A stretch of 40,849 nucleotides of DNA from a virus: the IMG/VR virus record IMGVR_UViG_3300031687_000037, positions 1 to 40,849 of that record. The stretch is one strand, 5' to 3'. Of the stretch, positions 11,864 through 34,665 are shown one piece after another. The notes below the pieces were generated by a model. That model did not search any database and had not been told where the DNA came from. It was given only the letters and a program-made list of their open reading frames with translations. The translations under genes and the position numbers were made by a program. Every line of letters begins with the position of its first letter. The first letter of the stretch is position 1.

Positions 11864-11887
11864 TAACCGACAACACTACATGCAAAT
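11864..11887 (+). promoter_or_regulatory. ACCGACA...TACATGCA element, copy 1
   Basis: TAACCGACA, four bases, then TACATGCAAA. It begins right after the T-tract of the terminator at 11814-11860 and lies just before a second terminator. It is one of four copies in non-coding DNA. The CGACA-CACTACA core recalls T7-class promoters (CGACTCACTATA), but the inner spacing varies between copies. Confidence 0.45.
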
Positions 11888-11947
11888 TCCCACAGTTTCC
11901 TTGGGGACGCGGGGCTGACGCTAAGCAGCCTCGCTTCCTTTTTTCTT
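11880..11947 (+). ncRNA. Candidate short RNA between element 1 and a terminator
   Basis: If element 1 is a promoter, transcription would start near 11880 and stop at the strong terminator ending near 11947, giving an RNA of about 60-70 bases with no reading frame. The evidence is only the arrangement of element, short spacer and terminator. Confidence 0.25.
11909..11947 (+). terminator. Strong intrinsic terminator
   Basis: Nine-pair stem GCGGGGCTG (11909-11917) with CAGCCTCGC (11926-11934), one G-U pair, and an 8-base loop, followed by TTCCTTTTTTCTT. It lies only about 50 bases after the previous terminator and just ahead of element copy 2. Confidence 0.8.
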
Positions 11948-11948
11948 A

Positions 11949-11970
11949 CAACCGACACACTACATGCAAA
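11949..11970 (+). promoter_or_regulatory. ACCGACA...TACATGCA element, copy 2
   Basis: CAACCGACA, three bases, then TACATGCAAA, directly after the T-tract of the second terminator and just before the HTH-like gene and the amidoligase cluster. If a promoter, it would drive that cluster. Confidence 0.45.
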
Positions 11971-11986
11971 AGCAATGAGGTATCAC

Positions 11987-12256
11987 ATGCCAAAAGATTA
12001 TGTCAGAGGCAAACCAATATTCATAGTGAACAAGACAACCCATAGTAGATTAGTACCAGACGCTGAGTACACCGTCAATCAACTATCAATGATAACAGGG
12101 CTAACAAAACCTCAGGTGTTCAGCAGATGTAGGAAGAAAAGTACCATAGAGGACTCAGACCTATCAGCTAAGGTACGTAAGTACACACGCCCTTGGCCTG
12201 CTCTCCATAAAGACGAAGTGTTCTCTGCTTCTTACCTGTGCAAACCTATCATATAA
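11987..12256 (+). CDS. Small protein with helix-turn-helix-like segment
   Basis: An 89-residue protein from the ATG at 11987, which has TGAGGT six bases upstream; the earlier in-frame ATG at 11975 overlaps that ribosome site and is rejected. The segment YTVNQLSMITGLTKPQVFSR (near 29-48) has the spacing of a helix-turn-helix, with basic residues after it (RCRKK, KVRKYTR). It may be a DNA-binding regulator or structural DNA-binding protein. It sits between element copy 2 and the amidoligase cluster, so it could regulate that unit. No family recognised. Confidence 0.55.
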   Translation: MPKDYVRGKPIFIVNKTTHSRLVPDAEYTVNQLSMITGLTKPQVFSRCRKKSTIEDSDLSAKVRKYTRPWPALHKDEVFSASYLCKPII

Positions 12257-12273: not shown

Positions 12274-13197
12274 ATGGCAGTTTCATTCGAAGTAACGTTA
12301 AGTAATATGACTGTACTTAAGTATGTGTCAAGAGCATGCTTCGCTCCAGTCAACCATGTATTATCTAATGATCAGATGAGTAGGCACAATAGAGTTAACG
12401 CTATCAAGTACCTACCTTTCTTTCAAAGGTACTACTCTAACGAAGACTGTATGAACCTTGAAGGCTACAAGATGACAAAAGAAATGTCATGGGAGTTAGC
12501 TACTAAGTGGTGGGATTATCTAATGACCCTGCCTTTTATAACCGAGAGTATAAAGGATGACATACCCAGCACAACAGAGGGGTACAAGTCTGGTCTAAAG
12601 GTTACAACCGAGATGCCAGCCGACAGGATGATGCTCACGTTGTTCCTCCTTAGAGCCCCGCAGTACCAGCCTAACATCGTAAGGGTGTGGGATAGGGTGA
12701 TGAAACAACATGACACTAACCCTGACACAGCACTAGTAACATCCTTCGCTATCAATAGCCAACAAGCTAGTGATATAATAGACACCGAAAGCTTTAACCC
12801 TGAATGCTCACCTTTAGATTCAATATCCCCTTTGTATTCTTGTGAGAACACTATCGTATACCCTCAGTACTTTAGCATAATCGGTGCTAAGATAATGCTT
12901 AATAGATTACTGTGCGATGACTACGATAAAGAACTCTTCGGTGGTACACAAGATTACTTCAGAGATAAGAGTCACTACAATCGGTACGCTACTACAGATC
13001 CCAAAGCTTTAGGTAGGTTCTTCTGTAAGAAACCCGCTTCATCATACCGGACAGGTAACCTTCAAGCCCGTGTAGCTAAGGATATACTAGGGCTAGAAGA
13101 TGTAAGCAAGCATAGTAACCTAGACTATAGAAGACGACATGATCTGGCAATGGACAAGGAACAAATAGCCCAACTCATAAAGTTAATTGAATCCTAA
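12274..13197 (+). CDS. Unrecognised protein, first gene of amidoligase cluster
   Basis: A 307-residue protein from the ATG at 12274 (GAGGA upstream; the frame stays open upstream but no good start lies there). It is rich in aromatic and polar residues, with predicted helices and no membrane segment. Visible patches are 'KWWDYLMTLPFI' (near 86-97), 'RMMLTLFLLRAPQY' (near 118-131) and a basic C-terminal part (LDYRRRHDLAMDKEQIAQLIKLIES). I recognise no catalytic motif or family. Its stop is ten bases before the next start, in the same tight unit as four amide-forming enzymes, so it may be the substrate carrier, acceptor or a scaffold of the pathway. That is inference. Confidence 0.75.
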   Translation: MAVSFEVTLSNMTVLKYVSRACFAPVNHVLSNDQMSRHNRVNAIKYLPFFQRYYSNEDCMNLEGYKMTKEMSWELATKWWDYLMTLPFITESIKDDIPSTTEGYKSGLKVTTEMPADRMMLTLFLLRAPQYQPNIVRVWDRVMKQHDTNPDTALVTSFAINSQQASDIIDTESFNPECSPLDSISPLYSCENTIVYPQYFSIIGAKIMLNRLLCDDYDKELFGGTQDYFRDKSHYNRYATTDPKALGRFFCKKPASSYRTGNLQARVAKDILGLEDVSKHSNLDYRRRHDLAMDKEQIAQLIKLIES

Positions 13198-13207
13198 GGG
13201 AGTTAAC

Positions 13208-14014
13208 ATGCTACATAAATCTAAATTGGAAAACGTAACAGTGGGTGCAGACCCTGAGGTATTCGTAGCGAATCATACCGGTACCATAACATCTGCTATA
13301 GGTAACGTAGGTGGTAGTAAAGACTTCCCTCGTCCAGTAACAGACGGTGGTGTTCAAGAAGACAATGTCCTAGCAGAATTTAACATCAACCCTGCCAGTA
13401 ATAAGATAGAGTTCCTTTACAATATGAACTCTGTTATGTCATCTCTTAAAAACATCTTAGAAAACAAAGACTTACAACCAGTCATCATTGCTAGTCACAT
13501 GTTCGACAAAGGTGAGCTCGAAAGCTATGGCCCTATGGCTATGGAATTTGGTTGTAGTGCTGAGTGGAATGCTTGGAGTGGACGTGAAATGCCAAGACCT
13601 CAAGGCTCTAAGGTTAACTTAAGAACTGCAGGTGGTCACGTACATGTAGGCTATGATGACCCCAACAAAGCAGACAGTATCGCTCTCGTTAAGATGCTAG
13701 ACTTTGTACTAGGCTTACCATCTATCGAGGTAGACCCTGACAATCAGAGACGTAAGTTGTATGGTAAAGCAGGGTCAATGAGATACAAACCTTACGGTGT
13801 CGAGTATAGATCTCTCAGTAATTTCTGGTTAAGCTCTGATGATCTCATGTCTTGGGTGTACGACACTACCCTATGGGCCACTAGTAATCTAGGTATGTTA
13901 CCTGAATTCCTAGAGTTAGTGGATAATAAAACTCTTAACAAAGTTATTAATAAGAGTGACAAACAATCTGCTCGTGCAATAATAGATGAGCTAGGTATAC
14001 AGAGGATTGCTTAA
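13208..14014 (+). CDS. COOH-NH2 ligase, phiEco32 type 2 (GS/GCS fold)
   Basis: A 268-residue protein from ATG 13208 (GGGAG upstream). It begins with the family's GADPEVFV signature (D15, E17), then EDNVLAEFN (51-59), GGHVHVGYD (142-150; H144, H146) and 'RRKLYGKAGSMRYKPYGVEYR' near 181-201. These are the metal- and ATP-binding strands of the glutamine synthetase/gamma-glutamylcysteine synthetase fold as seen in the phiEco32-like COOH-NH2 ligase type 2 family. Such enzymes activate a carboxylate as an acyl phosphate and join it to an amine. The substrate is unknown. Stop and next start share one base (TAATG). All expected acidic and His residues are present, so it should be active. Confidence 0.8.
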   Translation: MLHKSKLENVTVGADPEVFVANHTGTITSAIGNVGGSKDFPRPVTDGGVQEDNVLAEFNINPASNKIEFLYNMNSVMSSLKNILENKDLQPVIIASHMFDKGELESYGPMAMEFGCSAEWNAWSGREMPRPQGSKVNLRTAGGHVHVGYDDPNKADSIALVKMLDFVLGLPSIEVDPDNQRRKLYGKAGSMRYKPYGVEYRSLSNFWLSSDDLMSWVYDTTLWATSNLGMLPEFLELVDNKTLNKVINKSDKQSARAIIDELGIQRIA

Positions 14015-14709
14015 TGAACAATCCATTCAAAGATATTAACGCTAGAGATGTAAGCGGTACCTACTTAGACACTTACATTCAAATTAAAACAAGAGACGAT
14101 GATGACTACTACCCTGCTCAGTTGATAAACGTCAACCAAGAGATGAATGGATGTATACTAAGCTTTAAAAGATTCAATGAAGATGTCTTTGTTGTAGGTA
14201 AGGATGATCCTAAAGTTAAGTACAAGTTACAATGGCCTGAGTTAGGTATGGTTAACGTGAGAGATCATGTGTGTTTTGTCAAGAGGATAGCACAACGTCA
14301 ATGGAAGAAAGGGTTAAGACTATCTAACCTAGCTACCACTGTCTTTGACTCTACTATACTTGAAGAGTTATCCTTTACTTCTGAAAGATACAGAGCAAGT
14401 AGCTTTAGTTCAGAAGACATACAACTACTGTATAGACCTGAGTACACACCCTACATGCAAGCCATAGAATCTGTTAGCTCTGGCAGTAGTGTAGCTAGAG
14501 CAATCTCATCTAACTTTTGTATCTCTAATCGATTTGGTGTAATGACACCACTGTTATACTATAAGAAGCATGCTGTTGGTATCGTAAAAGACAACAGTAT
14601 ATCTATAGTACCAGAGGTAAGCCACATCATTCCTATACTAAAGAGGGTTGTCCCAAATGGATTCCACAATTCAATCACTGTGGCAGCACAGCGAAGCAGT
14701 ACCTTATAA
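14014..14709 (+). CDS. Unrecognised protein within amidoligase cluster
   Basis: A 231-residue soluble protein coupled to the preceding ligase by TAATG and overlapping the next ligase by 53 bases. The N-terminal 100 residues look beta-rich (TYIQIKTRDDDDYYPAQLINVNQ, then GCILSFKRF), and the C-terminal half has a Ser-rich helix (ESVSSGSSVARAISSNF, near 150-166). 'RIAQRQWKKGLRLS' near 91-104 is basic. No family or active-site motif is recognised. Close coupling to both ligases suggests it is a pathway partner, perhaps a subunit or the modified target. A 53-base overlap with the next gene also hints at tight co-regulation. Confidence 0.75.
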   Translation: MNNPFKDINARDVSGTYLDTYIQIKTRDDDDYYPAQLINVNQEMNGCILSFKRFNEDVFVVGKDDPKVKYKLQWPELGMVNVRDHVCFVKRIAQRQWKKGLRLSNLATTVFDSTILEELSFTSERYRASSFSSEDIQLLYRPEYTPYMQAIESVSSGSSVARAISSNFCISNRFGVMTPLLYYKKHAVGIVKDNSISIVPEVSHIIPILKRVVPNGFHNSITVAAQRSSTL

Positions 14710-15580
14710 AAATGATAAGACTAAGACAGGTGCACTACTATCTAACACTAGGATAGGTGTCGAAGTTGAAGTAGAACAGATGCAAAGAATGATAAGCGTA
14801 CCCGGATGGCGTTGCACTACTGACGGATCTCTCCGTGAGAATGGCGTTGAGTTTGTATTCAAAGGGCCTATTGGCGGTGCTGGTGCATGTCGTAGACTGG
14901 TAGCACTAGACAAAGTGTTGACATCTATACCTCAAAAGAACTTCTCAGCACGTACCTCTGTGCATGTTCACGTAGACGTTAGAGATATGACTTGGAACGA
15001 ACTTCTAAACCTAGTGATACTGTATGCTATGGTAGAACCTTACCTGTTCAGTGTCTGTGGTCAAGAGAGGGATGAGAGTATCTATTCCTTGTCTCTGTAT
15101 CGTGGTCAAGACCAAGTGTCTAAGCTAATAAACCTAATAGAAAACGGGCCTGAGTTCTTAACGTCACGTAACTGGACTAAGTACTCTAGTGTAAACCTGT
15201 TGTCTGTCATTAACTTTGGTTCTTTAGAGTTCCGTGGTCACCGTGGTACATGTGACAGCGGTACCCTTATCAATTGGATCAACCACCTCTTGTCTCTAAA
15301 GATGTGGGTTCAAATGTATGACAACAACCTGTCAGACTTACCTAAACTACTGAGTACTAGCGGTCACATCGCAATGCTTAGAGAAGTCTTTGGTGATAAA
15401 CTATTAGTGCCTAACATAAAAGCTGCTAATCGTGTACGTAATAAGATATATGAAGGTGTGTGGGTAGCTGAAGATATAATACACCACACTAAAATGAACA
15501 CAACCCACCGTAATCTAATAGAATCATTACAAGGTGGCAACCAATTGGATAAGATAAAGGATAAATTATGTGCGGTCTAG
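14657..15580 (+). CDS. Amidoligase (Amidoligase_2-type, GS/GCS fold)
   Basis: A 307-residue protein from ATG 14657 (AGAGG upstream, inside the previous gene). Signature blocks in order: IGVEVEVE (33-40; E36, E38, E40), TTDGSLRENGVEFVFKGP (54-71), TSVHVHVDVRD (100-110; H103, H105, D107) and FGSLEFRGHRG (187-197; E191, R193, H195, R196). This is the order of ATP/metal and substrate strands in the putative amidoligase family of the glutamine synthetase-like superfamily, distinct from the type 2 ligase at 13208. It likely forms an amide or peptide bond using ATP. It overlaps the amidotransferase gene by 13 bases. Substrates unknown. Confidence 0.8.
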   Translation: MDSTIQSLWQHSEAVPYKNDKTKTGALLSNTRIGVEVEVEQMQRMISVPGWRCTTDGSLRENGVEFVFKGPIGGAGACRRLVALDKVLTSIPQKNFSARTSVHVHVDVRDMTWNELLNLVILYAMVEPYLFSVCGQERDESIYSLSLYRGQDQVSKLINLIENGPEFLTSRNWTKYSSVNLLSVINFGSLEFRGHRGTCDSGTLINWINHLLSLKMWVQMYDNNLSDLPKLLSTSGHIAMLREVFGDKLLVPNIKAANRVRNKIYEGVWVAEDIIHHTKMNTTHRNLIESLQGGNQLDKIKDKLCAV

Positions 15581-16686
15581 TAGGGGTAGTATCAAACAGT
15601 CTTACTTTTCAAACGAACAAAGTGTTCAAGCAACTGTTATATATGGATGCCCTTAGAGGCCCTCATAGTACTGGTGTTGCTACTGACAACAAAGATAACG
15701 AAGTAAGTGTGTACAAACGTGCACTAATGTCAAGTGATTTCTTACAGTTAGATGCAGCAAACACCTTGATCAGTAGTATATCGGGTAGCTTCTTGATGGG
15801 TCACAACAGGTACGCAACCCAAGGTAGTATCAATGATGACAACGCACACCCATTCACCTATGGTAACGTGACCCTATGCCACAACGGTACCTTGACTGAT
15901 CAAACTACACTACCAGATCATAAAGACTTTGAAGTGGACAGTGAGAATATCGCATGGGCTATGGGGTTAGCAAAAGAACCTGAAGAGGTTATAAGTAAAC
16001 TTCACGGTGCCTTTGCTTTGACTTGGTACAATGACCATGAACTTAAGTTCTATATAGTACGCAACAGTGAGCGACCTATGTGGTATGCTATAGATAAAGA
16101 GAAAAGTAATTACTATTATGCTTCTGAAAGATTCATGCTTGAGGCAGCTCTAACTAGAAACAGTATCAAGTATGACATCAAAGAAGTTAAGGCTGGTGAA
16201 CTGCTTACCTTCGATATGTCTAAGACTAATATAGAACTCACTATTAGAACTGTTAAGTTAGCACCTAAGAAAGTAATAACTAGCCCTTCGTATCAATCAT
16301 GGAACATTAAAAGTTATAAAACAGCAAACCCTCTATCGTCTTACAACCTTAAGATAGGGGACGAGGTTGAGTTCTACACACACGGGTTACCTGATGTTGT
16401 ATCATCTAAAACTTTGGGTACCCTACTAGGTGTAAGTACTTGCAAAGTACCTATGACTATCAAGTGCTATGCACAGCCCAATGACTCTATTGCTGGGTAC
16501 TACACAGGCATAGTACAATCTGTTATTAATGATAAAGGAAAAGATATCCTTATCATAAGAGAACCTTGGCTAGCAGAGATCATAGAGGGTGATGTTAACA
16601 ACGTAGGTAGGCCTGAAATCGTAGATAAAATACTATCAAAAGACGCTGCGCTAGCGTCAACCATAAACCAAAGGGCATTTAAATGA
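15568..16686 (+). CDS. Class II glutamine amidotransferase (Ntn hydrolase)
   Basis: A 372-residue protein that starts MCGLVGV. Once Met is removed, Cys2 is the N-terminal nucleophile as in GlmS, PurF and asparagine synthetase. Other glutaminase-site residues are present: GHNRYATQG (78-86, R81), DNAHPF (91-96), CHNGTLTD (104-111, N106, G107) and an acidic 'VDSENIAWA' (near 122-130). The first ~210 residues form the glutaminase domain, which releases ammonia from glutamine. The remaining ~160 residues (strand-rich, LKIGDEVEFYTHGLPDV near 258-272) do not resemble an isomerase or synthetase domain. I infer ammonia supply to one of the adjacent ligases, or glutaminyl transfer. Its stop overlaps the ATP-grasp start (ATGA). 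Confidence 0.85.
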   Translation: MCGLVGVVSNSLTFQTNKVFKQLLYMDALRGPHSTGVATDNKDNEVSVYKRALMSSDFLQLDAANTLISSISGSFLMGHNRYATQGSINDDNAHPFTYGNVTLCHNGTLTDQTTLPDHKDFEVDSENIAWAMGLAKEPEEVISKLHGAFALTWYNDHELKFYIVRNSERPMWYAIDKEKSNYYYASERFMLEAALTRNSIKYDIKEVKAGELLTFDMSKTNIELTIRTVKLAPKKVITSPSYQSWNIKSYKTANPLSSYNLKIGDEVEFYTHGLPDVVSSKTLGTLLGVSTCKVPMTIKCYAQPNDSIAGYYTGIVQSVINDKGKDILIIREPWLAEIIEGDVNNVGRPEIVDKILSKDAALASTINQRAFK

Positions 16687-17915
16687 GTAAACTATTAGTA
16701 CTTCCATACAAATCATCCAGTAAATCTGCTGTTGTAATAGCTAATGAACTGGGTTGTAAAAGAATGAACCTAACTAACTCAAGGGTAGTTGATAACCCTA
16801 ACACTAGCATCATTAACTGGGGTAACTCAACAACTAACCTGTCACACTTACCCTCTGTTAAAGTGTACAACGTATCAGAGAACGTAAGATTAGCATCTCA
16901 TAAGTTAGATTTCTTTAAGGCTATCGAACAGTACAACGATGCTAATCAAGATAGCCCTGTGTCTATACCAGACTGGACATCTAAGGTCAGTGTTGCAAGA
17001 CGATGGTACACTGAAGGTAACGATGTAGTTGTACGTAACGTAATGCAAGGTCACTCTGGTGATGGCCTTGAATTAATAAGCTATGACGAAAGTATACTTG
17101 CTAAGGATGCTGTACCTAAAGCACCTCTATACACTAAGTATATGAAGAAGAGAGACGAGTACCGTGTCCATGTTGTAGGCCAAGAGGCTATCTTCTTACA
17201 ACGTAAAGCCCCAAGATATAGTGATAGTCGTATCGTTGACTACCAAATACGTAACACTGCTAATGGATTCATCTTTGTAACTGAAGGCTTAAACCCTAAT
17301 CCTCTTGTAGAATCTGAGGCTGTTAAAGCTGTTGTTGCATTGGGCTTAGACTTCGGAGCTGTAGATGTTATATGGAATGAAAGACGTGGTAAAGCTACTG
17401 TAATAGAAGTCAACACTGCGTGTGGGTTAACAAGCATTAAGGGTATCGAGCGGTACAAGAGAGCCTTAGAGTCTATGTTAACCAATAAAGCTCAAATAAA
17501 ATGGAGTCAAAGTTTACCTATCGATAACTTTGAAGAGACGCTTGAAGACCTTAACACCATGTTTAATGAGGTAGAAGCTAAGAAAACTTTCCTTCGTAGA
17601 ACTTCACAGTTACTAACAAGCTCAGCCCCTAATGAAAGGATAACCTATAACTCTATTGGAGACTCAGTAATATTATCTGATGTCATTAAAAGTTATATAG
17701 TTGATTATGTTTTAGAAGGTGGTACTGAGAATGGAGCTAACAATTACCATACAATATCAGAGCTATCAGGCCTTATGTGTGACTTTATACTGTACGATTG
17801 GAAAGTACAAGAGGACACATGTCGTGTGCTATTCTCCCCTAGGTCAGATGATACCTTACGATGCCACATAGAACTAGACCTACCTAGTAGTCAAATACAT
17901 TTAGTGGAGGGTTAA
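16683..17915 (+). CDS. ATP-grasp ligase (RimK-like) with C-terminal extension
   Basis: A 410-residue protein. The ATP-grasp fold is visible as the glycine loop GHSGDGLEL (123-131), the strand 'LYTKYMKKRDEYRVHVVG' (149-166), GLDFGAVDVIW (221-231, D228) and the Mg-binding ATVIEVNTACGL (238-249; E242, N244), an intact set. RimK-like ATP-grasp ligases join a carboxylate to an amine through an acyl phosphate. Residues 271-410 lie outside the core and are not recognised. The start codon overlaps the amidotransferase stop (ATGA) and the next gene begins one base after the stop, so the four enzymes are almost certainly co-translated. Substrate not predictable. Confidence 0.85.
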   Translation: MSKLLVLPYKSSSKSAVVIANELGCKRMNLTNSRVVDNPNTSIINWGNSTTNLSHLPSVKVYNVSENVRLASHKLDFFKAIEQYNDANQDSPVSIPDWTSKVSVARRWYTEGNDVVVRNVMQGHSGDGLELISYDESILAKDAVPKAPLYTKYMKKRDEYRVHVVGQEAIFLQRKAPRYSDSRIVDYQIRNTANGFIFVTEGLNPNPLVESEAVKAVVALGLDFGAVDVIWNERRGKATVIEVNTACGLTSIKGIERYKRALESMLTNKAQIKWSQSLPIDNFEETLEDLNTMFNEVEAKKTFLRRTSQLLTSSAPNERITYNSIGDSVILSDVIKSYIVDYVLEGGTENGANNYHTISELSGLMCDFILYDWKVQEDTCRVLFSPRSDDTLRCHIELDLPSSQIHLVEG

Positions 17916-17916
17916 T

Positions 17917-18315
17917 ATGTTAAATGATTTGTATAAGGTAGCAGTATACGGTACACTACGTAAGGGTAATGGTAACAACGTACTGTTATCTAACTCTAAA
18001 ATGGTAGGTACTGTATTCACTGCGCCTAACTATCAAATGTTTTCCTTAGGTGGGTTCCCCGGTATCCGATCAGGTAATAAAAGAGTTCTCGTAGAGGTGT
18101 ACGAGATAGACGATGCAACCCTCTCTCGCTTGGATAGATTAGAGGGGTACCGTGGTGAGGGTGAGAGTAACTTCTACGAAAGAGAACTCATTGAGACAGC
18201 CTTAGGTACCACATACATCTACACACTAGACGATGATAGGTACGATAAGTGCCCGACCATTGAGTCTGGCAACTGGAATGAACATAAAGAAGTAAGACTT
18301 AAAGATTTAATCTAA
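17917..18315 (+). CDS. Gamma-glutamylcyclotransferase-like (AIG2/GGCT fold)
   Basis: A 132-residue protein with the family hallmark YGTLRKG (11-17), FPGIRSG (47-53), 'EVYEID' (60-65) and the catalytic-site segment RLDRLEGY (71-78), where E76 fits the family's general acid/base. Members cleave gamma-glutamyl amines to 5-oxoproline plus free amine. As the last gene of the amidoligase cluster it could trim or recycle a gamma-glutamyl intermediate, or proof-read the product, which hints that glutamate is one of the joined units. It has GGAGG before its ATG at 17917. Fold call is strong; role is inference. Confidence 0.85.
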   Translation: MLNDLYKVAVYGTLRKGNGNNVLLSNSKMVGTVFTAPNYQMFSLGGFPGIRSGNKRVLVEVYEIDDATLSRLDRLEGYRGEGESNFYERELIETALGTTYIYTLDDDRYDKCPTIESGNWNEHKEVRLKDLI

Positions 18316-19602: not shown

Positions 19603-19629
19603 GCAACACCGACACCTGACTACATGCAT
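19603..19629 (+). promoter_or_regulatory. ACCGACA...TACATGCA element, copy 3
   Basis: CAACACCGACA, six bases, TACATGCATTTTT, beginning just after the T-tract of the terminator at 19578-19600. Same element as at 11864 and 11949. Confidence 0.45.
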
Positions 19630-19635
19630 TTTTCG

Positions 19636-19665
19636 GCAACCGACACCTGCTTACATGCATTTTTA
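19636..19665 (+). promoter_or_regulatory. ACCGACA...TACATGCA element, copy 4
   Basis: CAACCGACA, six bases, TACATGCATTTTT, immediately after copy 3 with a T-run in between, and ahead of the small-gene and nucleotide-metabolism unit. Confidence 0.45.
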
Positions 19666-27681: not shown

Positions 27682-29778
27682 ATGGCTAACGCTATACATG
27701 CTGTAGCTCAGTACATAAGGAGCAATAGAGAAGGTGCCCGAGGTAGGAATCACTCGGGTATCGAACTCTTAAACAGGCATATGGATTACGGTATAGAATA
27801 CGAAGAGCTTGTTATATGTGCAGTACAGGCAGCTCAAAGCTTATTCCTTAGATCCCGTAACGCTAGTAGTAGAAGCTTCAAGTTAACAGCAACATCAACA
27901 TCAATAGGTTTATCTGTGGTCTCTAGGATAGGGATCAGGAACAGTACCTATACAGAGTTATTCTCAGTTGGTGATCTGTTTGTCGAAGCCTTACTACAAC
28001 TTAAGTACCTTGAGATAGAAAGAGAGTACGAAGGTTACCGAGCACCGTATGTAATATTCTTAACAGAAAAGTGGGAAGACTTAGGTGAGATACCTCCAGA
28101 GTTTGATAAGGCTACACTGAGTGGTACTAGCTTTAAGAAATTCCCTAAGATAATTGGGTTAAGAAACCCGATAACCAAGAGGCCGTATATCAAACGTATG
28201 ACCTCGGAGAGGGACTTTAACCAGTGCCTTGACCAACCCTTTGTGAAAGCTCTAGACAAGCTGCAATCGTCTGCTTGGCACCTTAACGTAGACCTTGTTA
28301 AAGCTCTCAGAGATAACGTCACTAAGTTCTTAGATATGAAAGATAAGACAGACAAAGGTAGGTCTAAAAGAATAGAGATGAAGTTTATCTTAAACAAAGC
28401 AAGGGCTATAGGAGACGAAACTTTCTACCAAGCGGTAGAGTGTGACTACAGGGGGCGAGTGTACTACACTGAACCGTTCTTAAACTACCAAGGTTCTGAC
28501 TTAGCCAAAGGTCTCTTTCAGTTTGGCGTAAGTAAACCTATGGATGACAAAGGATTCTTTTGGTTATGTGTACACACTGCATGTTCTTACAACCAGTCGT
28601 ATACGATAGAGGACTTAGATAAACAATCATGGTTAACAGAAGACTACAGGCATCACTTAGCAGAAGAAGGGTTGGATACTATTTCAGTAGACAAAATGAC
28701 GTTAAGGGACAGAGCACATTGGACAGTACACCACCAGAAGGAACTGATAAACGATGCAACCTTGATGAACTTCAGGATGGAAGCGGAGAAACCAGTATCA
28801 CTCCTAGCTTGCTGTCTTGATCTTAAAGGTTATGTAGAATCTGAAGGGGTATACGAGTCTTGTCTGCCTATACCTGTAGACGGAAGTAACAATGGATGGC
28901 AACACCTAGCTGCTATGTCTAAAGACAGTCAAGCAGGGGCGTTAGTCTCCATAGTACCTCAGCTAATACAAAAAGATTTCTATGTAGAAGTAGCTAAGCG
29001 ATTGATAGTTAGAATGCCTGAGTGGTTTGAGGGTAGGTCTATGCCAATGAAAGCAATACGTAAAGGGATAGCCAAGCGTGGGTCTATGACTAGAGCTTAC
29101 TCTGCAGGTCAACGTAAGATAGCAGAGAATATGTTCTATGATTGTAAGACTGAGGGATACAATAAGAAGTACAAGATAAGCAAAGATGACTGCGACAAGC
29201 TGTCTAAGAATCTAATTCTTGCTATCAATGATACTTGTGTTGGGCCCTTAAAGACCATGAAGTTCTTACAAAAGATAACTGACTACTCACTAGAGAGTGG
29301 ACAGACTTGTCTATCGTGGACTACACCATCAGGATTCCCTGTGTTGTATGAAGTATGGAAGCAAAAGAACCTGACACTAAGGGGTACTATCAGGGGCTTA
29401 GGGCAGATAGGTCATAGCATCAAGGTGCCTGTGCTTACCAGAGAAAGTAAGCCTATACCATGCCGTAGGTCTTTTGCATCTGGATGTTCACCTAACTTTG
29501 TACACTCAATGGATGCAGCACACATGGCTAAGGTAATCGAGTCATTCCCCGGAAGCTTTGGGGCAGTACATGATTCCTTCTCTACCCATGCGTGTGACGT
29601 TGAGAGGTTACTTGAGCATACTAAGTGGCAGTTTGCTATGATGTATAATGTAAGTAACTTCTTTAATCGCATAGAGTCTATGATCCTTGAGGATCGTACA
29701 GGTTACTGTGTTAAACAACCAGATATAGGTGATCTAAAAATAGAAGAAGTCATAAGCTCTGACTATTTCTTTTCTTAA
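27682..29778 (+). CDS. T7-type single-subunit RNA polymerase
   Basis: A 698-residue phage RNA polymerase. Palm and fingers catalytic residues are intact: PVDGSNNGWQH (D400, as T7 D537), IAKRGSMTRAY (K465, R466, Y473, as T7 K631/R632/Y639) and AVHDS (H630, D631, as T7 H811/D812). SPNFVHSMDAAHM follows the promoter-specificity loop region (about 564-590). The C-terminal foot ends DYFFS, like the T7 FAFA end. It is about 185 residues shorter than T7 RNAP, mostly in the N-terminal domain. It is encoded far down the rightward block, not at its start, so host polymerase must reach it first. Confidence 0.95.
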   Translation: MANAIHAVAQYIRSNREGARGRNHSGIELLNRHMDYGIEYEELVICAVQAAQSLFLRSRNASSRSFKLTATSTSIGLSVVSRIGIRNSTYTELFSVGDLFVEALLQLKYLEIEREYEGYRAPYVIFLTEKWEDLGEIPPEFDKATLSGTSFKKFPKIIGLRNPITKRPYIKRMTSERDFNQCLDQPFVKALDKLQSSAWHLNVDLVKALRDNVTKFLDMKDKTDKGRSKRIEMKFILNKARAIGDETFYQAVECDYRGRVYYTEPFLNYQGSDLAKGLFQFGVSKPMDDKGFFWLCVHTACSYNQSYTIEDLDKQSWLTEDYRHHLAEEGLDTISVDKMTLRDRAHWTVHHQKELINDATLMNFRMEAEKPVSLLACCLDLKGYVESEGVYESCLPIPVDGSNNGWQHLAAMSKDSQAGALVSIVPQLIQKDFYVEVAKRLIVRMPEWFEGRSMPMKAIRKGIAKRGSMTRAYSAGQRKIAENMFYDCKTEGYNKKYKISKDDCDKLSKNLILAINDTCVGPLKTMKFLQKITDYSLESGQTCLSWTTPSGFPVLYEVWKQKNLTLRGTIRGLGQIGHSIKVPVLTRESKPIPCRRSFASGCSPNFVHSMDAAHMAKVIESFPGSFGAVHDSFSTHACDVERLLEHTKWQFAMMYNVSNFFNRIESMILEDRTGYCVKQPDIGDLKIEEVISSDYFFS

Positions 29779-30654: not shown

Positions 30655-30680
30655 GGGGGCCCTAACGGGCTCCCTTTTTT
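30655..30680 (+). terminator. Rightward terminator of the convergent pair
   Basis: GGGGGCCC (30655-30662) and GGGCTCCC (30667-30674) pair over eight positions (one G-U), followed by TTTTTT. It overlaps the stop codon of the leftward 1328-residue gene. Confidence 0.85.
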
Positions 30681-33600
30681 ATTGTAATGTTGTTTTAAAC
30701 TTAGGATCATCCATAGCAAACTGATAGATACCTCTTGCCTTACCTTCTCCGCTAGCTGCGGAAACGTACTGGTAGTGTGCATCTTTCATATGCTTAGCTA
30801 CTCCTCTTCTCCTTTCAGCAGAATCTCTATCAAGCCTTGCAAGATCCTTTACAACTGAACCAAACTTCCACTTCATTAAGAAAGACATAGACTCTGATAA
30901 GGTAGCATAGTTTCTGTAAGGGTTAGGTGTCTCTATCTCAAGACCTTTGTACTGATGTGGCTTTAACCTAGCAGCTAAACGTTCAGCTTCTTCCTTAAGT
31001 GGCCCGTCAACATCTAAGTAATTAAGTTGATTCCTAACAAACTCAACAGTATTGTTGTGTTCATCTTCCATTATCAACTCTTTACCTGCCTGTTCCCCTC
31101 GTCTTTTAAACTCCTTAAAGCCATGGTGGATGTTACCTGTAACTACATCCTTGATATCCTTAAGAACAGCAGAGTTATTAGTTTGATCAAACCAATCATC
31201 ATTTAACATCTGTTCTACAATATCACCTTGACTTAAGTCTGTAACAACAGCGTCATAAATAGGAGATAGCCAAGGCATATTATCACCTTGCGTAAGCTTA
31301 GTCCAGTTCTTACCAGATGCCAACATAATCATGTTCATTGCATCAAAAGACTGAGCAAGTGTAGCTAAGGAAGATCCCCTTGCTTTACCGCCTAAGATAC
31401 CACCCTGTGCAGCATAAGGGGTTAGCTGTGGGTTAGCAGAAGTAGTTTGAATCCTTTGATCAACTGACTTAAGCTGTTTCCTTAGTGCATCAGCTCTGAC
31501 TAAGTTACCTTCAGCTTCAGCTCTTGAAATACTATCTTGTATTCCTTTGTTTACCTTACGGTTACCTGCTATAGTTTTACTGTCAAGCCTCTTACCATTT
31601 TCAAATGGAGTTATCATACCCCTCTTGAAACTCTCAGTGTCGTATACTTTCTCCATACCACCTAACGTAGTCTTACCGCCACTTGGGCTTGGGAAAGTAA
31701 CCATTCTGTTAAACATAGTAGACGCATCAACAGAATCCTTAAGCAAAGCAGCAAACTCTACAAGCTCAGGCCCTAAGGTAGCTTCAACTGCAACACCTCT
31801 TATATCGTTTAGTAACATAGCAGCGTTGTTAAGTCCACCGGGGAATGACTCAGCCGCTTGCTTAAGAGTAGGATCACTAAGTAAAGTATCCCAGACAGAA
31901 CCTATTAAGTTATCCATCTCTTGACCATAAGCAAAGGTCATTAAAGGTTTCTTAAGGAAGTCTGCCTTGTTCTTTAAAGACAACTGAAAGAGTTCTCTTA
32001 CATTATCTAACATAGTTTCGTCATAGCTGTACTTATCCATGAACGCTTTGTCAGTAAGCATGTAACCGCTGAACTCACTGTCAAGTAAAGTCTCTAAGTT
32101 ATTACTGAGGGTCTTTCTTATATCACCTTCGTAAGCTTCAAAGCCTTCTATGTCAGAATAAGCTCCAAGTATCTTACTAGCATTCTCAGCACGGAACAAA
32201 CCAACCCGATACAACTTCTCTTTAAGACCTAGTATGCTGAACATAGTAGCTAATCCATTAGAGATGCCATCGATTTCCATATAGTTAACAGCAGATCTAA
32301 AAGACTTACCTGCTTTCATAGCTGCATCATAGTTAGCTATATCAATAACAGCATCTATCATTTGTATAGCATGCTTGTGTGCTTTCTTGTTATTAGCCAA
32401 ACCTTGTATGAAGTCTGCAACCTCAGGGTCAGAAGATAAAGCTGCTGGTACTCTAGTAGGTAGCTTGTCTACACCTGAAACACCATTACTGTTTACCATA
32501 ATCTGAGACAAAGCTAATCGTGCTGGCTTGTCATCGTAAGCCTGAAGGGCCTCGTTGATCTTTTTGCCAATCCTAACTAGTCTCTTATGGGCCTCAGATT
32601 GTGTACGTATGTTACCCGCAGCTTGCTCTATAGCATCAGCCCTTACAAGACCACCTCCGTCATAGAACAAAGCAGACATAGTAGCCAACCAGTTACTCTC
32701 TTCTCTGCTACGGCTGTTAGGAATGACCTCGATCATCTTACCACTGCCAATAATATTACGAACAAGATGGTTGTTAACTGGTGATAGCGAAGAGTGTGGT
32801 GTTAACCTTTGAGTAACTCTTTGTTTAAAGTATGTAAAGTAAAAAGGTTTATTGTCATACACAGATAAGCTCGTAAGAACCTCAAGGGCTTTGTTAGCAT
32901 GCATGTAATACTGTTGCTGTTGGAACTCTGGAGTTCTAAACTTAGCTTCTTGCAACTTAGATATCTCTATATCTTGCTGTAGTTTCTCTATTAAAAACAC
33001 AGTACGATAATAAGCAGGACTAGAAGGTTCAACAAGCAGAGCTTTATCTAGCTTAGCCTGAAGTACAAGACCCCTAGCATTTTCATTTTCTGCTATCTTT
33101 GCAATAGAAGCTTTCCTTTCATCACCTATGTCAAACATATCAAGCAAAGGGTTACCATTAGCACCCATAGCAGCCTGACCCATAGCAGCAGAGCCTAACA
33201 AGATTGCAATCTTAGATCGTCTAGGTTCAAAGTAATTAGGCACTTGACTGTAACTAAACATAGCATCATCGGCGCTAATAGACTTAGGGTTAGGTACAGA
33301 TCCTGTGCTAGACTTAGTATAAGCAGATCCCTCATACATAGGTTGACCTGTAGCAGGGGGAGATAGAAGTGGCTTCATCCTTGGATTAAAAGGTTTATAC
33401 TTCCTAACATCTCTTGAGAGTACCTGAAATCCTAGCTTAGTCAAAGACAAAGTAGGTGGTAAAATATTACCAGCTTCATCAATACCGCCCGGAGAATGAG
33501 TAACTATATCCGGGAAACTCATTTGATAATCAGCAAGAAAAATCTTACCAATCATTTCAAAAGCCTCAGGTGTTAAGTTCTGGTAATCAGCTACGTAAGA

Positions 33601-34665
33601 ATCTGTTTCCAAACCTTCCATCTCAGACTTAGCTCTACGAAAATCCTTAAAGATAGCCTCACCCACACCTCTAACCGATGTGTCAAACTTAGAGTCTCCG
33701 GCTTGATAACCTTGCAACTCATCTATGTCTGCTTGAGCAGCAGAACTTAGAGGTGAACCATCGTCATTGTTAGCTTGAGACATGCTTAGAAGCCAAGGCT
33801 CTATCACTGCCATTTGTATTAGGTCAAACCGTGGGTCTACTTTAGCTGTCCTTGCGTAAGATATTTCCTCAAAGTCTGCCTCTCCGTCTGCATAAGCCTG
33901 AGCTGTGTCACGTTCGAACTTAGCATCTAGCTTACCAACCCCAAGGATCTTAGGGTGCATCACTAAGTTAGACATGCTTAACTTTAAATCAGGATTGTCC
34001 TTGAAAACATTAGGGGCTACATCATCCTGAGTCTGCATCTGTTCGATAGCCTCAGCAGTAACTTCCTCATCAGGGTTAAGCTTAAGGGTATCCTTAATGC
34101 TTAGACCAATAACATCCCTGTCCTGAGAGTCCCTTGTTTTAAACCTAACTCTTTCTGTAAGCTCATGCCCTAAGACATTTGCTGCATTAGAGAAGCTAGT
34201 GGCGATACCCATTCTTTCTAATGGGCCGGGGACTCTTTCCTGTTCCCGTTGTTGAACCTCAAGGGGTGTCTCAGCTTGATCAACAAAGACATTGCTGCCT
34301 TCCTCAACCACAGAGCCAACACCCTGAGAGCCTACGTCAGCTTGCGCAGGTAGTACAGTGGCTTCTGCCAGACCTAAGTCTGAAACAGGAGTCTCTAGTT
34401 GAGACCCCTCAGCAACCATATCAGTTTCATCTATGATACCAAGTTGTATCAAGTCTTCTCGGGTATACTCACCTTCGCCTTGTACTCCTTGAGGCCCTTC
34501 CAATGGGCCGAACTGTTCCTCTATTCCTTGAAGAGCCTCGTTACCACCTTGAGCTTGTTGAGAAAGCTCTTCCTGTAACCTGAGAAGCGACTCTTGTTTA
34601 CTTGCTTCTGTTTCAGCAGCCGTAGGTTGAGCACCTATCACTGCGTTAGCTGACGTAATCGCCAT
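30679..34665 (-). CDS. Very large virion/ejection protein, 1328 residues
   Basis: A 1328-residue soluble protein, last of three leftward virion genes. The N-terminal 90 residues are Gln-, Glu- and Gly-rich and of low complexity; residues 66-82 carry a motif (EYTREDLIQLGI...) also present near the start of the 1604-residue protein. The remainder is helical, with hydrophobic stretches that are not clear membrane spans (e.g. SKIAILLGSAAMGQAAMG). The C-terminus has LMKWKFGSVVKDLARLDRDS near 1270-1290. No enzyme domain is recognised. Size, order and pairing suggest a counterpart of T7 internal core proteins gp15/gp16 that are ejected to form the trans-envelope channel. The ATG at 34665 lies three bases after the preceding stop, with AGGAGAA as ribosome site. 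Confidence 0.6.
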   Translation of the reverse strand: MAITSANAVIGAQPTAAETEASKQESLLRLQEELSQQAQGGNEALQGIEEQFGPLEGPQGVQGEGEYTREDLIQLGIIDETDMVAEGSQLETPVSDLGLAEATVLPAQADVGSQGVGSVVEEGSNVFVDQAETPLEVQQREQERVPGPLERMGIATSFSNAANVLGHELTERVRFKTRDSQDRDVIGLSIKDTLKLNPDEEVTAEAIEQMQTQDDVAPNVFKDNPDLKLSMSNLVMHPKILGVGKLDAKFERDTAQAYADGEADFEEISYARTAKVDPRFDLIQMAVIEPWLLSMSQANNDDGSPLSSAAQADIDELQGYQAGDSKFDTSVRGVGEAIFKDFRRAKSEMEGLETDSYVADYQNLTPEAFEMIGKIFLADYQMSFPDIVTHSPGGIDEAGNILPPTLSLTKLGFQVLSRDVRKYKPFNPRMKPLLSPPATGQPMYEGSAYTKSSTGSVPNPKSISADDAMFSYSQVPNYFEPRRSKIAILLGSAAMGQAAMGANGNPLLDMFDIGDERKASIAKIAENENARGLVLQAKLDKALLVEPSSPAYYRTVFLIEKLQQDIEISKLQEAKFRTPEFQQQQYYMHANKALEVLTSLSVYDNKPFYFTYFKQRVTQRLTPHSSLSPVNNHLVRNIIGSGKMIEVIPNSRSREESNWLATMSALFYDGGGLVRADAIEQAAGNIRTQSEAHKRLVRIGKKINEALQAYDDKPARLALSQIMVNSNGVSGVDKLPTRVPAALSSDPEVADFIQGLANNKKAHKHAIQMIDAVIDIANYDAAMKAGKSFRSAVNYMEIDGISNGLATMFSILGLKEKLYRVGLFRAENASKILGAYSDIEGFEAYEGDIRKTLSNNLETLLDSEFSGYMLTDKAFMDKYSYDETMLDNVRELFQLSLKNKADFLKKPLMTFAYGQEMDNLIGSVWDTLLSDPTLKQAAESFPGGLNNAAMLLNDIRGVAVEATLGPELVEFAALLKDSVDASTMFNRMVTFPSPSGGKTTLGGMEKVYDTESFKRGMITPFENGKRLDSKTIAGNRKVNKGIQDSISRAEAEGNLVRADALRKQLKSVDQRIQTTSANPQLTPYAAQGGILGGKARGSSLATLAQSFDAMNMIMLASGKNWTKLTQGDNMPWLSPIYDAVVTDLSQGDIVEQMLNDDWFDQTNNSAVLKDIKDVVTGNIHHGFKEFKRRGEQAGKELIMEDEHNNTVEFVRNQLNYLDVDGPLKEEAERLAARLKPHQYKGLEIETPNPYRNYATLSESMSFLMKWKFGSVVKDLARLDRDSAERRRGVAKHMKDAHYQYVSAASGEGKARGIYQFAMDDPKFKTTLQ

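Follow-up and report, generated by a model that had tools for sequence, protein, structure and literature searches.

What might a phage make with two amide-forming ligases, an ATP-grasp enzyme, a glutaminase and a gamma-glutamyl cyclotransferase encoded side by side? This question is raised by a cassette of seven contiguous plus-strand genes, placed by the open reading frame list at positions 12274-18315 of the 40,849-nucleotide stretch of viral DNA analysed here (IMG/VR record IMGVR_UViG_3300031687_000037, below called the window). Such a cassette takes up about 6 kb among the early or middle genes of hundreds of phages, which infect Pseudomonas, E. coli, Vibrio and marine bacteria.

The locus and its relatives

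The reading frame list, Pfam and PHROG agree on the coordinates, the gene assignments and the operon structure that a preliminary description of this DNA had given, with neighbouring genes overlapping or separated by at most 10 bases. In the order P1, LIG, P3, AMI, GAT, GRASP and GGCT, the junctions are a gap of 10 bases, overlaps of 1, about 50-60, 13 and 4 bases, and a gap of 1 base. The source is a marine-type podovirus with a CRP-7-related genome and its own RNA polymerase. The earlier term "T7-polymerase phage" is justified insofar as a single-subunit RNA polymerase is encoded at 27682-29778 (phrog_414, E=2e-102). Roseobacter phage CRP-7 is the nearest isolate by backbone, and the 50 kb examined in it contain zero matches to the cassette families.

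The cassette itself is not new. The locus belongs to the peptide-bond cassettes already known from podoviruses, as it combines the five enzyme families, the order LIG-P3-AMI next to GAT and GRASP, and intact catalytic residues. A seven-gene module has been named in RIO-1, phiEco32, 7-11, PA11, LUZ24, PaP3, tf and CW02 (PMC5498523) and described in phiM6 (PMC6256558); the passages of these papers devoted to it, where Hardies 2013 and Iyer are cited, label it a 'peptidoglycan modification' or peptide-bond module. The cassette is found in about 310 isolated phages, and LUZ24 and UFV-P2 share the gene order, including the two unknown genes. The preliminary description had made its reading depend on a gene order shared with relatives, and such an order is found: 75 of 80 loci picked by LIG alone hold all five core genes, the rest being either cut by contig ends (2) or devoid of a detected P3 (3). 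Among 103 dereplicated cassettes, each admitted with at least five of six families, 341 of the 419 core junctions overlap or lie within 20 bases. LIG homologues occur in GTDB on 7 contigs only, six of which are contigs of MAGs, and the plasmids searched contain none.

Just 5' of the first reading frame of the operon, two plus-strand copies of a bipartite motif, ACCGACA-(3-4 nt)-TACATGCA, lie within 11866-11968 and flank a terminator-like hairpin at 11909-11934. The window contains four copies in all, the other two being at 19608-19659, and 100 shuffled sequences contain none. The motif is present in 20 fetched loci, which are partly duplicates of the same contigs, and in two of the loci (L020 and L030) it precedes the cassette at about the same place. 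It is a candidate regulatory element. A scan for sigma-70 promoters scored the real sequence no better than shuffles. A 93-residue plus-strand reading frame at 11975-12256, matched by neither Pfam nor PHROG, is possibly the first gene of the transcription unit and lies outside the conserved cassette.

The enzymes and their two companions

The catalytic positions are kept in at least 91% of 67-141 relatives, and all of them are present in the window in all five enzymes, in agreement with the preliminary description. LIG (13208-14014), a GCS-superfamily COOH-NH2 ligase of type 2, matches PF14395 (E=2e-10) and phrog_3815 (E=4e-88) and keeps the active-site E/H/H/E/R as E17, H144, H146, E199 and R201; its reading frame opens upstream, at TTG 13187. 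AMI (about 14648-15580), a second GCS/GS-like amidoligase, matches PF12224 (E=2e-6) and phrog_7469 (E=8e-52), with E39, E41, E43, H106, H108, E194 and R196 in place. Sequence searches of the PDB found no relative of either ligase.

GAT (15568-16686) is a class II (Ntn) glutaminase or glutamine amidotransferase with its catalytic cysteine at position 2. It begins with MCGLVG, matches PF13522 (GATase_6, E=7e-15) and has the conserved residues R81, N106 and D124. A [MVL]C[GAS] start is found in 135 of 157 complete copies, and most of the others read I-C-G behind a non-ATG start. The C-terminal extension is variable and has no match to a SIS domain. The PHROG label of L-glutamine-D-fructose-6-phosphate aminotransferase (GlmS) was rejected, as Pfam recognizes GATase domains only, and the structures of GlmS and PurF align with the GAT profile over the N-terminal glutaminase domain alone.

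GRASP (16683-17915) matches phrog_2599 (E=2e-64), bears a C-terminal extension and keeps K74, E159, R161, D228, E242 and N244. The family searches proposed in the preliminary description gave the expected matches to PF14395, PF12224, class II GATase and GGCT, but the Pfam ATP-grasp models all fell below their cut-offs (RimK E=0.12, 12.5 bits against a cut-off of 21). The alignment profile of GRASP nevertheless has RimK (5zct, E=1.6e-8) as its best match in the PDB, followed by an alpha-L-glutamate ligase (7qys, E=8e-7) and cyanophycin synthase (7lgn, E=8e-6). These best matches would suit a RimK-like step in which glutamates are attached to a protein of the host or the phage, to be trimmed later by a cyclotransferase or a C26 hydrolase. 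We regard such protein tagging as unlikely: the Pfam RimK score is below cut-off, no C-terminal acceptor tail was identified, and the cassette is expressed before the virion genes.

A gamma-glutamyl thiol, with GGCT closing a gamma-glutamyl cycle, would be another use of these ligases. The combination of a GCS-superfamily ligase, an ATP-grasp enzyme and a cyclotransferase parallels glutathione metabolism; in RIO-1 the ATP-grasp gene is followed, two genes on, by one for a glutaredoxin; sulfate reduction towards cysteine is over-expressed in HP1-infected cells, an observation for which the authors needed an explanation (PMC7082346); and a 'glutathione synthase' is annotated in phage ZRK32, in the part of PMC10945688 that deals with its genes. 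GRASP is nearest to RimK, however, and glutathione synthetase is absent among its PDB and Pfam matches, while CRP-7, where the search for cassette families found none, encodes a glutaredoxin as well. A glutathione-like route is accordingly improbable. Glutathione biosynthesis as such is rejected, as domains of the GshA or GshB type were found neither by Pfam in the cassette proteins nor in the PDB for LIG, AMI and GRASP.

The two remaining proteins are regular members of the cassette. P1 (12274-13197, 307 residues) is one cassette-specific family, newly defined here by iterative HMM searches that join 94 divergent reading frames, with C22 and R127 invariant. Its AlphaFold2 model (pLDDT 93.7) has no PDB match at E<=0.001, and a known peptidase-like fold was rejected on this ground; its matches in BFVD are other phage proteins, and the named ones come from cassette-type phages. 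P3 (14014-14709; phrog_11055, E=1.5e-16), newly recognized as a regular cassette member, is found in 100 of 103 cassettes, always in the order LIG-P3-AMI. Its model (pLDDT 94.4) weakly resembles tandem Tudor/SH3-like domains, the best Foldseek match being to Tudor domains at E=0.02. The alignments used as input for both models left out rows from annotated records. Pfam matches among P1 and P3 members are scattered single chance matches, except that SspH is weakly matched by 5 of 67 P3 members.

Release of the gamma-glutamyl group and the probable product

GGCT (17917-18315) is a gamma-glutamyl cyclotransferase of the AIG2/YtfP type (PF06094, E=5e-22; YtfP 1xhs, E=7e-20). Both E60 and E76 are present, and Glu76 of the LDxLEGY motif is kept in 100% of 67 relatives. 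In many relatives a peptidase-C26 gamma-glutamyl hydrolase is found, which matches PF07722 and keeps its Cys83/His184/Glu186 triad at 95-98%; in the isolate PA11, for instance, a C26-type gene is annotated and its cassette region has no GGCT. All 74 cassettes with full flanks have a gamma-glutamyl-releasing gene: C26 only in 32, GGCT only in 24 and both in 18. Over all 103 cassettes the two genes tend to exclude each other (Fisher OR 0.13, p=1e-5, not corrected for phylogeny). On the tree, the presence of GGCT and of C26 is clustered, with 9 and 6 changes, respectively, and well-supported branches offer too few independent pairs for a significant result. C26 is newly recognized as an alternative to GGCT, and the comparison of cassettes supports the need for a gamma-glutamyl-releasing activity. 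The general idea of ligation followed by gamma-glutamyl removal is upheld, and its gamma-glutamyl part is firmer than could be known from the window, because an unrelated hydrolase often takes the place of GGCT and none of the 74 cassettes lacks both.

By combining this information, it is possible to propose a pathway in outline. We consider it fairly probable that glutamine-fed ligases make a gamma-glutamylated product, whose gamma-glutamyl group is later taken off or recycled by an enzyme dedicated to this step. GAT would hydrolyse glutamine to glutamate and ammonia, as is usual for its family, or its role could instead be limited to supplying ammonia or transferring gamma-glutamyl groups. 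LIG, AMI and the RimK-like GRASP would then join glutamate-like or amine units at the expense of ATP. The product would be amide-linked, probably gamma-glutamyl-containing and built on an acceptor, and P1 and P3 may supply the substrate, the acceptor or a scaffold. GGCT, replaced or joined in relatives by C26, would finally remove or recycle the gamma-glutamyl group. The constant presence of GGCT or C26 together with the regular P1 and P3 makes the proposal testable: a phage that has lost GGCT or C26 should accumulate a gamma-glutamylated intermediate.

The cassette is expressed early and immediately in HP1 (PMC7082346), ATP-grasp, GAT and GGCT, all products of early genes, were detected in an SU10 preparation (PMC4281155), and the PaP3 genes are of the middle class by gene order (PMC4707531). 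This early-to-middle expression suggests that the pathway would affect host physiology or precursors of the envelope, and not completed virions. Among the possible targets, a soluble metabolite of the host or a cell-wall precursor seems likelier than protein, and DNA the least likely.

Unusual linkages on cell-wall peptide side chains, blocking superinfection or tuning lysis, are proposed in the relevant passages of PMC5498523 and PMC6256558, again citing Hardies 2013 and Iyer. Ligase and gamma-glutamyl chemistry suits stem peptides, and the immediate expression in HP1 (PMC7082346) also speaks for this reading. Such peptidoglycan modification is possible but on balance doubtful, as the annotated families include no known cell-wall precursor enzyme, the cassette has no wall-specific partner in the regions read, and no supporting experiment was found in the literature. 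Nor did the literature on the cassette yield a demonstrated product, substrate or phenotype, and the LUZ24 small-ORF toxicity study leaves the cassette genes unmentioned.

The account of ZRK32 in PMC10945688 proposes that such enzymes help to turn ammonia and glutamine into amino acids, and reports that P. stutzeri supplied with nitrate or ammonium grew better when the phage was added. In that account the growth effect is not tied by mutation to these genes, and scavenging does not account for P1 and P3 as regular members or for the C26/GGCT pattern; it seems very unlikely. The earlier suggestion of DNA as a target is disfavoured, because the DNA of the cassette phage tf was cut by HaeIII and sequenced natively (PMC3517423), and neither a hydroxymethylase nor a similar base-modifying partner is seen in the cassette regions read. 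A DNA modification pathway, which has nothing but analogy in its favour, is barely credible.

A bolder form of the gamma-glutamylation proposal may also be considered, as a speculation with a rather small chance of being correct. The cassette might be a phage-specific non-ribosomal route, working on or through the new-fold P1 with its invariant cysteine, that attaches a gamma-glutamyl group as a transient handle or protecting group, has it taken off by one or the other of two unrelated enzymes, and yields an undescribed metabolite for host takeover.

Comparison with known systems

The gamma-glutamylation proposal has precedents in bacterial metabolism. In the Puu pathway, the GS-superfamily ligase PuuA gamma-glutamylates putrescine with ATP, and the C26 hydrolase PuuD releases the glutamate. 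The cassette is comparable in the C26 hydrolase of relatives and in a GS-superfamily ligase that may attach gamma-glutamyl groups with ATP. It differs in having no oxidase or dehydrogenase genes, in adding an ATP-grasp enzyme, an amidoligase and a glutaminase, and, in the window, in having GGCT. In the protection of AHBA during butirosin synthesis, the ATP-grasp enzyme BtrJ ligates glutamate and BtrG, an AIG2-type cyclotransferase, removes the gamma-glutamyl group. The cassette likewise pairs an ATP-grasp enzyme with predicted AIG2-type gamma-glutamyl removal, but neither acyl-carrier protein genes nor antibiotic scaffold genes are seen in it. RimK, the ribosomal protein S6 glutamate ligase, is the closest solved ATP-grasp relative of GRASP by sequence; GRASP differs in its place within a multi-ligase operon, its extra C-terminal region and the absence of S6-specific evidence.

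The cassettes of the RIO1-like, phiEco32-like and LUZ24-like phages and of phiM6 have the same enzyme families as the one described here. What sets the present copy apart is its place in a CRP-7-related genome that encodes an RNA polymerase. The analysis also extends the published descriptions by defining the P1 and P3 families and by adding C26 as an alternative to GGCT.

Gene content, order and distribution

The preliminary description of an amide- or peptide-bond cassette in a phage with a T7-type polymerase proved accurate. Its run of seven plus-strand genes at 12274-18315 is borne out by the ORF list of the 40.8-kb IMG/VR virus record. Family searches match LIG to PF14395, AMI to PF12224, the glutaminase GAT to GATase_6 and the cyclotransferase GGCT to PF06094, and GRASP is recognized through phrog_2599 and RimK-like relatives in the PDB. 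P1, the first gene, has no function by family searches; P3, between LIG and AMI, matches phrog_11055, which has none either. The junctions are overlaps or gaps of at most 10 bases and the catalytic residues are intact, as claimed: in each family the active-site residues are conserved across 67 to 141 relatives, and the window retains them, including the N-terminal Cys of GAT. In several relative loci (L006, L004, L069, L054, L121 and L156) GAT apparently opens at a non-ATG codon, reading I-C-G, and for this reason the record annotations of ECBP2 (L006) and Vibrio phage 275E43-1 (L004) place the start downstream, with loss of the catalytic Cys.

A tblastn search of 50,697 phage records found LIG in 312, GAT in 341 and GRASP in 309, with nearly identical host breakdowns. 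LIG has no match on plasmids, and the GTDB scan gave seven loci, six of them on MAG contigs, which fits a module restricted to viruses. Two IMG/VR scans yielded 160 loci. Among 80 loci picked by LIG similarity alone, 75 carry LIG, P3, AMI, GAT and GRASP; two of the others are cut at contig ends, and in three P3 was not detected. This figure is less biased than those from the 103 dereplicated cassettes, because the latter set required at least five of six families. In the 103, the order LIG-P3-AMI is kept in 100, GAT lies ahead of LIG or behind AMI, and at 341 of 419 junctions neighboring core genes overlap or are at most 20 bases apart. Gene order is thus conserved among relatives. Two ATP-grasp matches, usually one ahead of GAT and the other behind AMI, occur in L045, L050, L051, L058, L125, L136, L148, L150 and L160.

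A bipartite motif, ACCGACA-(3-6 nt)-TACATGCA, has four copies in the window and none in shuffles. Two are located just 5' of the operon (11866-11884 and 11951-11968) and two near 19.6 kb (19608-19628 and 19639-19659). The motif, which is possibly regulatory, occurs in 20 fetched loci, some being copies of identical contigs. A near-identical hairpin, AGAGCCCTTCGGGCTCCT, is found at three intergenic sites (10754, 11242 and 20453).

P1 and P3

Proteins at the P1 position of different cassettes looked unrelated, but two iterative HMM searches, each started from its own seed, ended with an identical set of 94 ORFs. Cys22 and Arg127 are invariant in alignments of 51 and 48 sequences. The profile detects P1 in 52 of 103 cassettes; others have, in a comparable position, a protein that bears the motif C[FYW][GAN] and is only weakly reached by the profile. 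The AlphaFold model (mean pLDDT 93.7) has no Foldseek match in the PDB (best E=0.46) and 12 among viral models at E<0.001; those named belong to CVT22, CW02, GAP52 (two), LAh_6 and LAh_8 (two), followed at E=0.005 by Proteus 3H10_20 and RIO-1. In GAP52, LIG is directly preceded by two neighboring genes whose products, 290 and 314 aa long, have the lengths of the two structural hits. Paired P1-like genes ahead of LIG are also seen in LUZ24-like and phiEco32-like phages (L003 gp14/gp15, L006 ECBP2_0086/0087, L174 gp028/gp029), and possibly represent a duplication.

P3, where detected, always lies between LIG and AMI. Its model (confidence 94.4) weakly resembles tandem Tudor/SH3-like barrels; the best E is 0.02 and the TM-score is low.

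Predicted gamma-glutamyl release and the proposed chemistry

In 61 of the 103 loci, neighborhood clustering revealed a family of 200-aa proteins. Four of them match PF07722 (Peptidase C26) at E=2e-18 to 6e-25, and the Cys-His-Glu triad is kept at 95-98%. A sequence comparison of one member with the PDB gave matches to 3fij and to 7d4r/7d50/7d53, the latter being the PuuD-like SpuA. Scored over the whole retrieved region, which extends up to 10 kb per side, and not strictly within the operon, C26 alone is present in 45 of the 103 cassettes, GGCT alone in 28, both in 23 and neither in seven (Fisher OR 0.13, p=1e-5). With a loosened C26 threshold, the counts for the 74 cassettes whose flanks reach at least 3 kb upstream and at least 2.5 kb downstream are 32, 24, 18 and zero. 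The empty last cell is robust. On the LIG tree, C26 changed at least six times and GGCT at least nine; the well-supported branches yield only one or two independent pairs, too few for a test corrected for phylogeny to have any power. The pattern is suggestive of GGCT and C26 replacing each other. Isolate PA11 has a C26-type gene and lacks GGCT in the cassette region examined.

Comparison of the sequences establishes the families with their residues and gene order, and shows that an enzyme family predicted to release gamma-glutamyl groups is constantly present. Glutamine hydrolysis would supply the ligases, which would build a gamma-glutamyl-containing amide, later cut by GGCT with release of 5-oxoproline or by C26 with release of glutamate. 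We regard this chemistry as reasonably probable; each individual target considered for it is rather unlikely.

The phage backbone and earlier descriptions of the cassette

The window encodes a single-subunit RNA polymerase, and its structural genes and polymerases are nearest to Roseobacter phage CRP-7 (major capsid 53%, primase/helicase 46%, RNA polymerase 32%). Of the 58 kb of CRP-7, the first 50 kb match no cassette profile, C26 included, so this backbone has probably either acquired the cassette or lost it. A sigma-factor-like protein, identified by eye, lies near the cassette in 29 of 103 loci (cluster 9; e.g. L046 12623-13111); the window's phage has its single-subunit polymerase instead. 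Residues 753-914 of a 1328-aa late-strand protein (30679-34665) locally match the PHROG profile of the N4 virion RNA polymerase (E=9e-7). A 179-aa ORF at 25507-26046 matches homing-endonuclease PHROGs and, at E=4e-32, a PHROG that carries the name NAD synthetase, a label that looks doubtful. A long direct-repeat array at 1197-2168, with steps of 21 nt (7 codons), lies mostly within a 322-aa ORF on the minus strand (1073-2041), whose product is probably a virion or fiber protein of repetitive sequence.

Cassette genes are expressed immediately in HP1 (PMC7082346), and in PaP3 the block, its position mapped in the present analysis, falls by gene number into the middle class (PMC4707531). ATP-grasp, glutaminase and YtfP-type proteins are among the early gene products detected by mass spectrometry in SU10 (PMC4281155). 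The accessible literature gave no biochemical product of the cassette. The set has been described as a seven-gene peptidoglycan modification cassette, hypothesized to block superinfection (PMC5498523), and as seven ORFs of phiM6 predicted to form peptide bonds (PMC6256558); PMC10945688 treats the genes as auxiliary metabolic genes. UFV-P2 lists the genes in matching order. The window's copy belongs to this known and widespread module, for which the comparison of relatives now yields a testable prediction.
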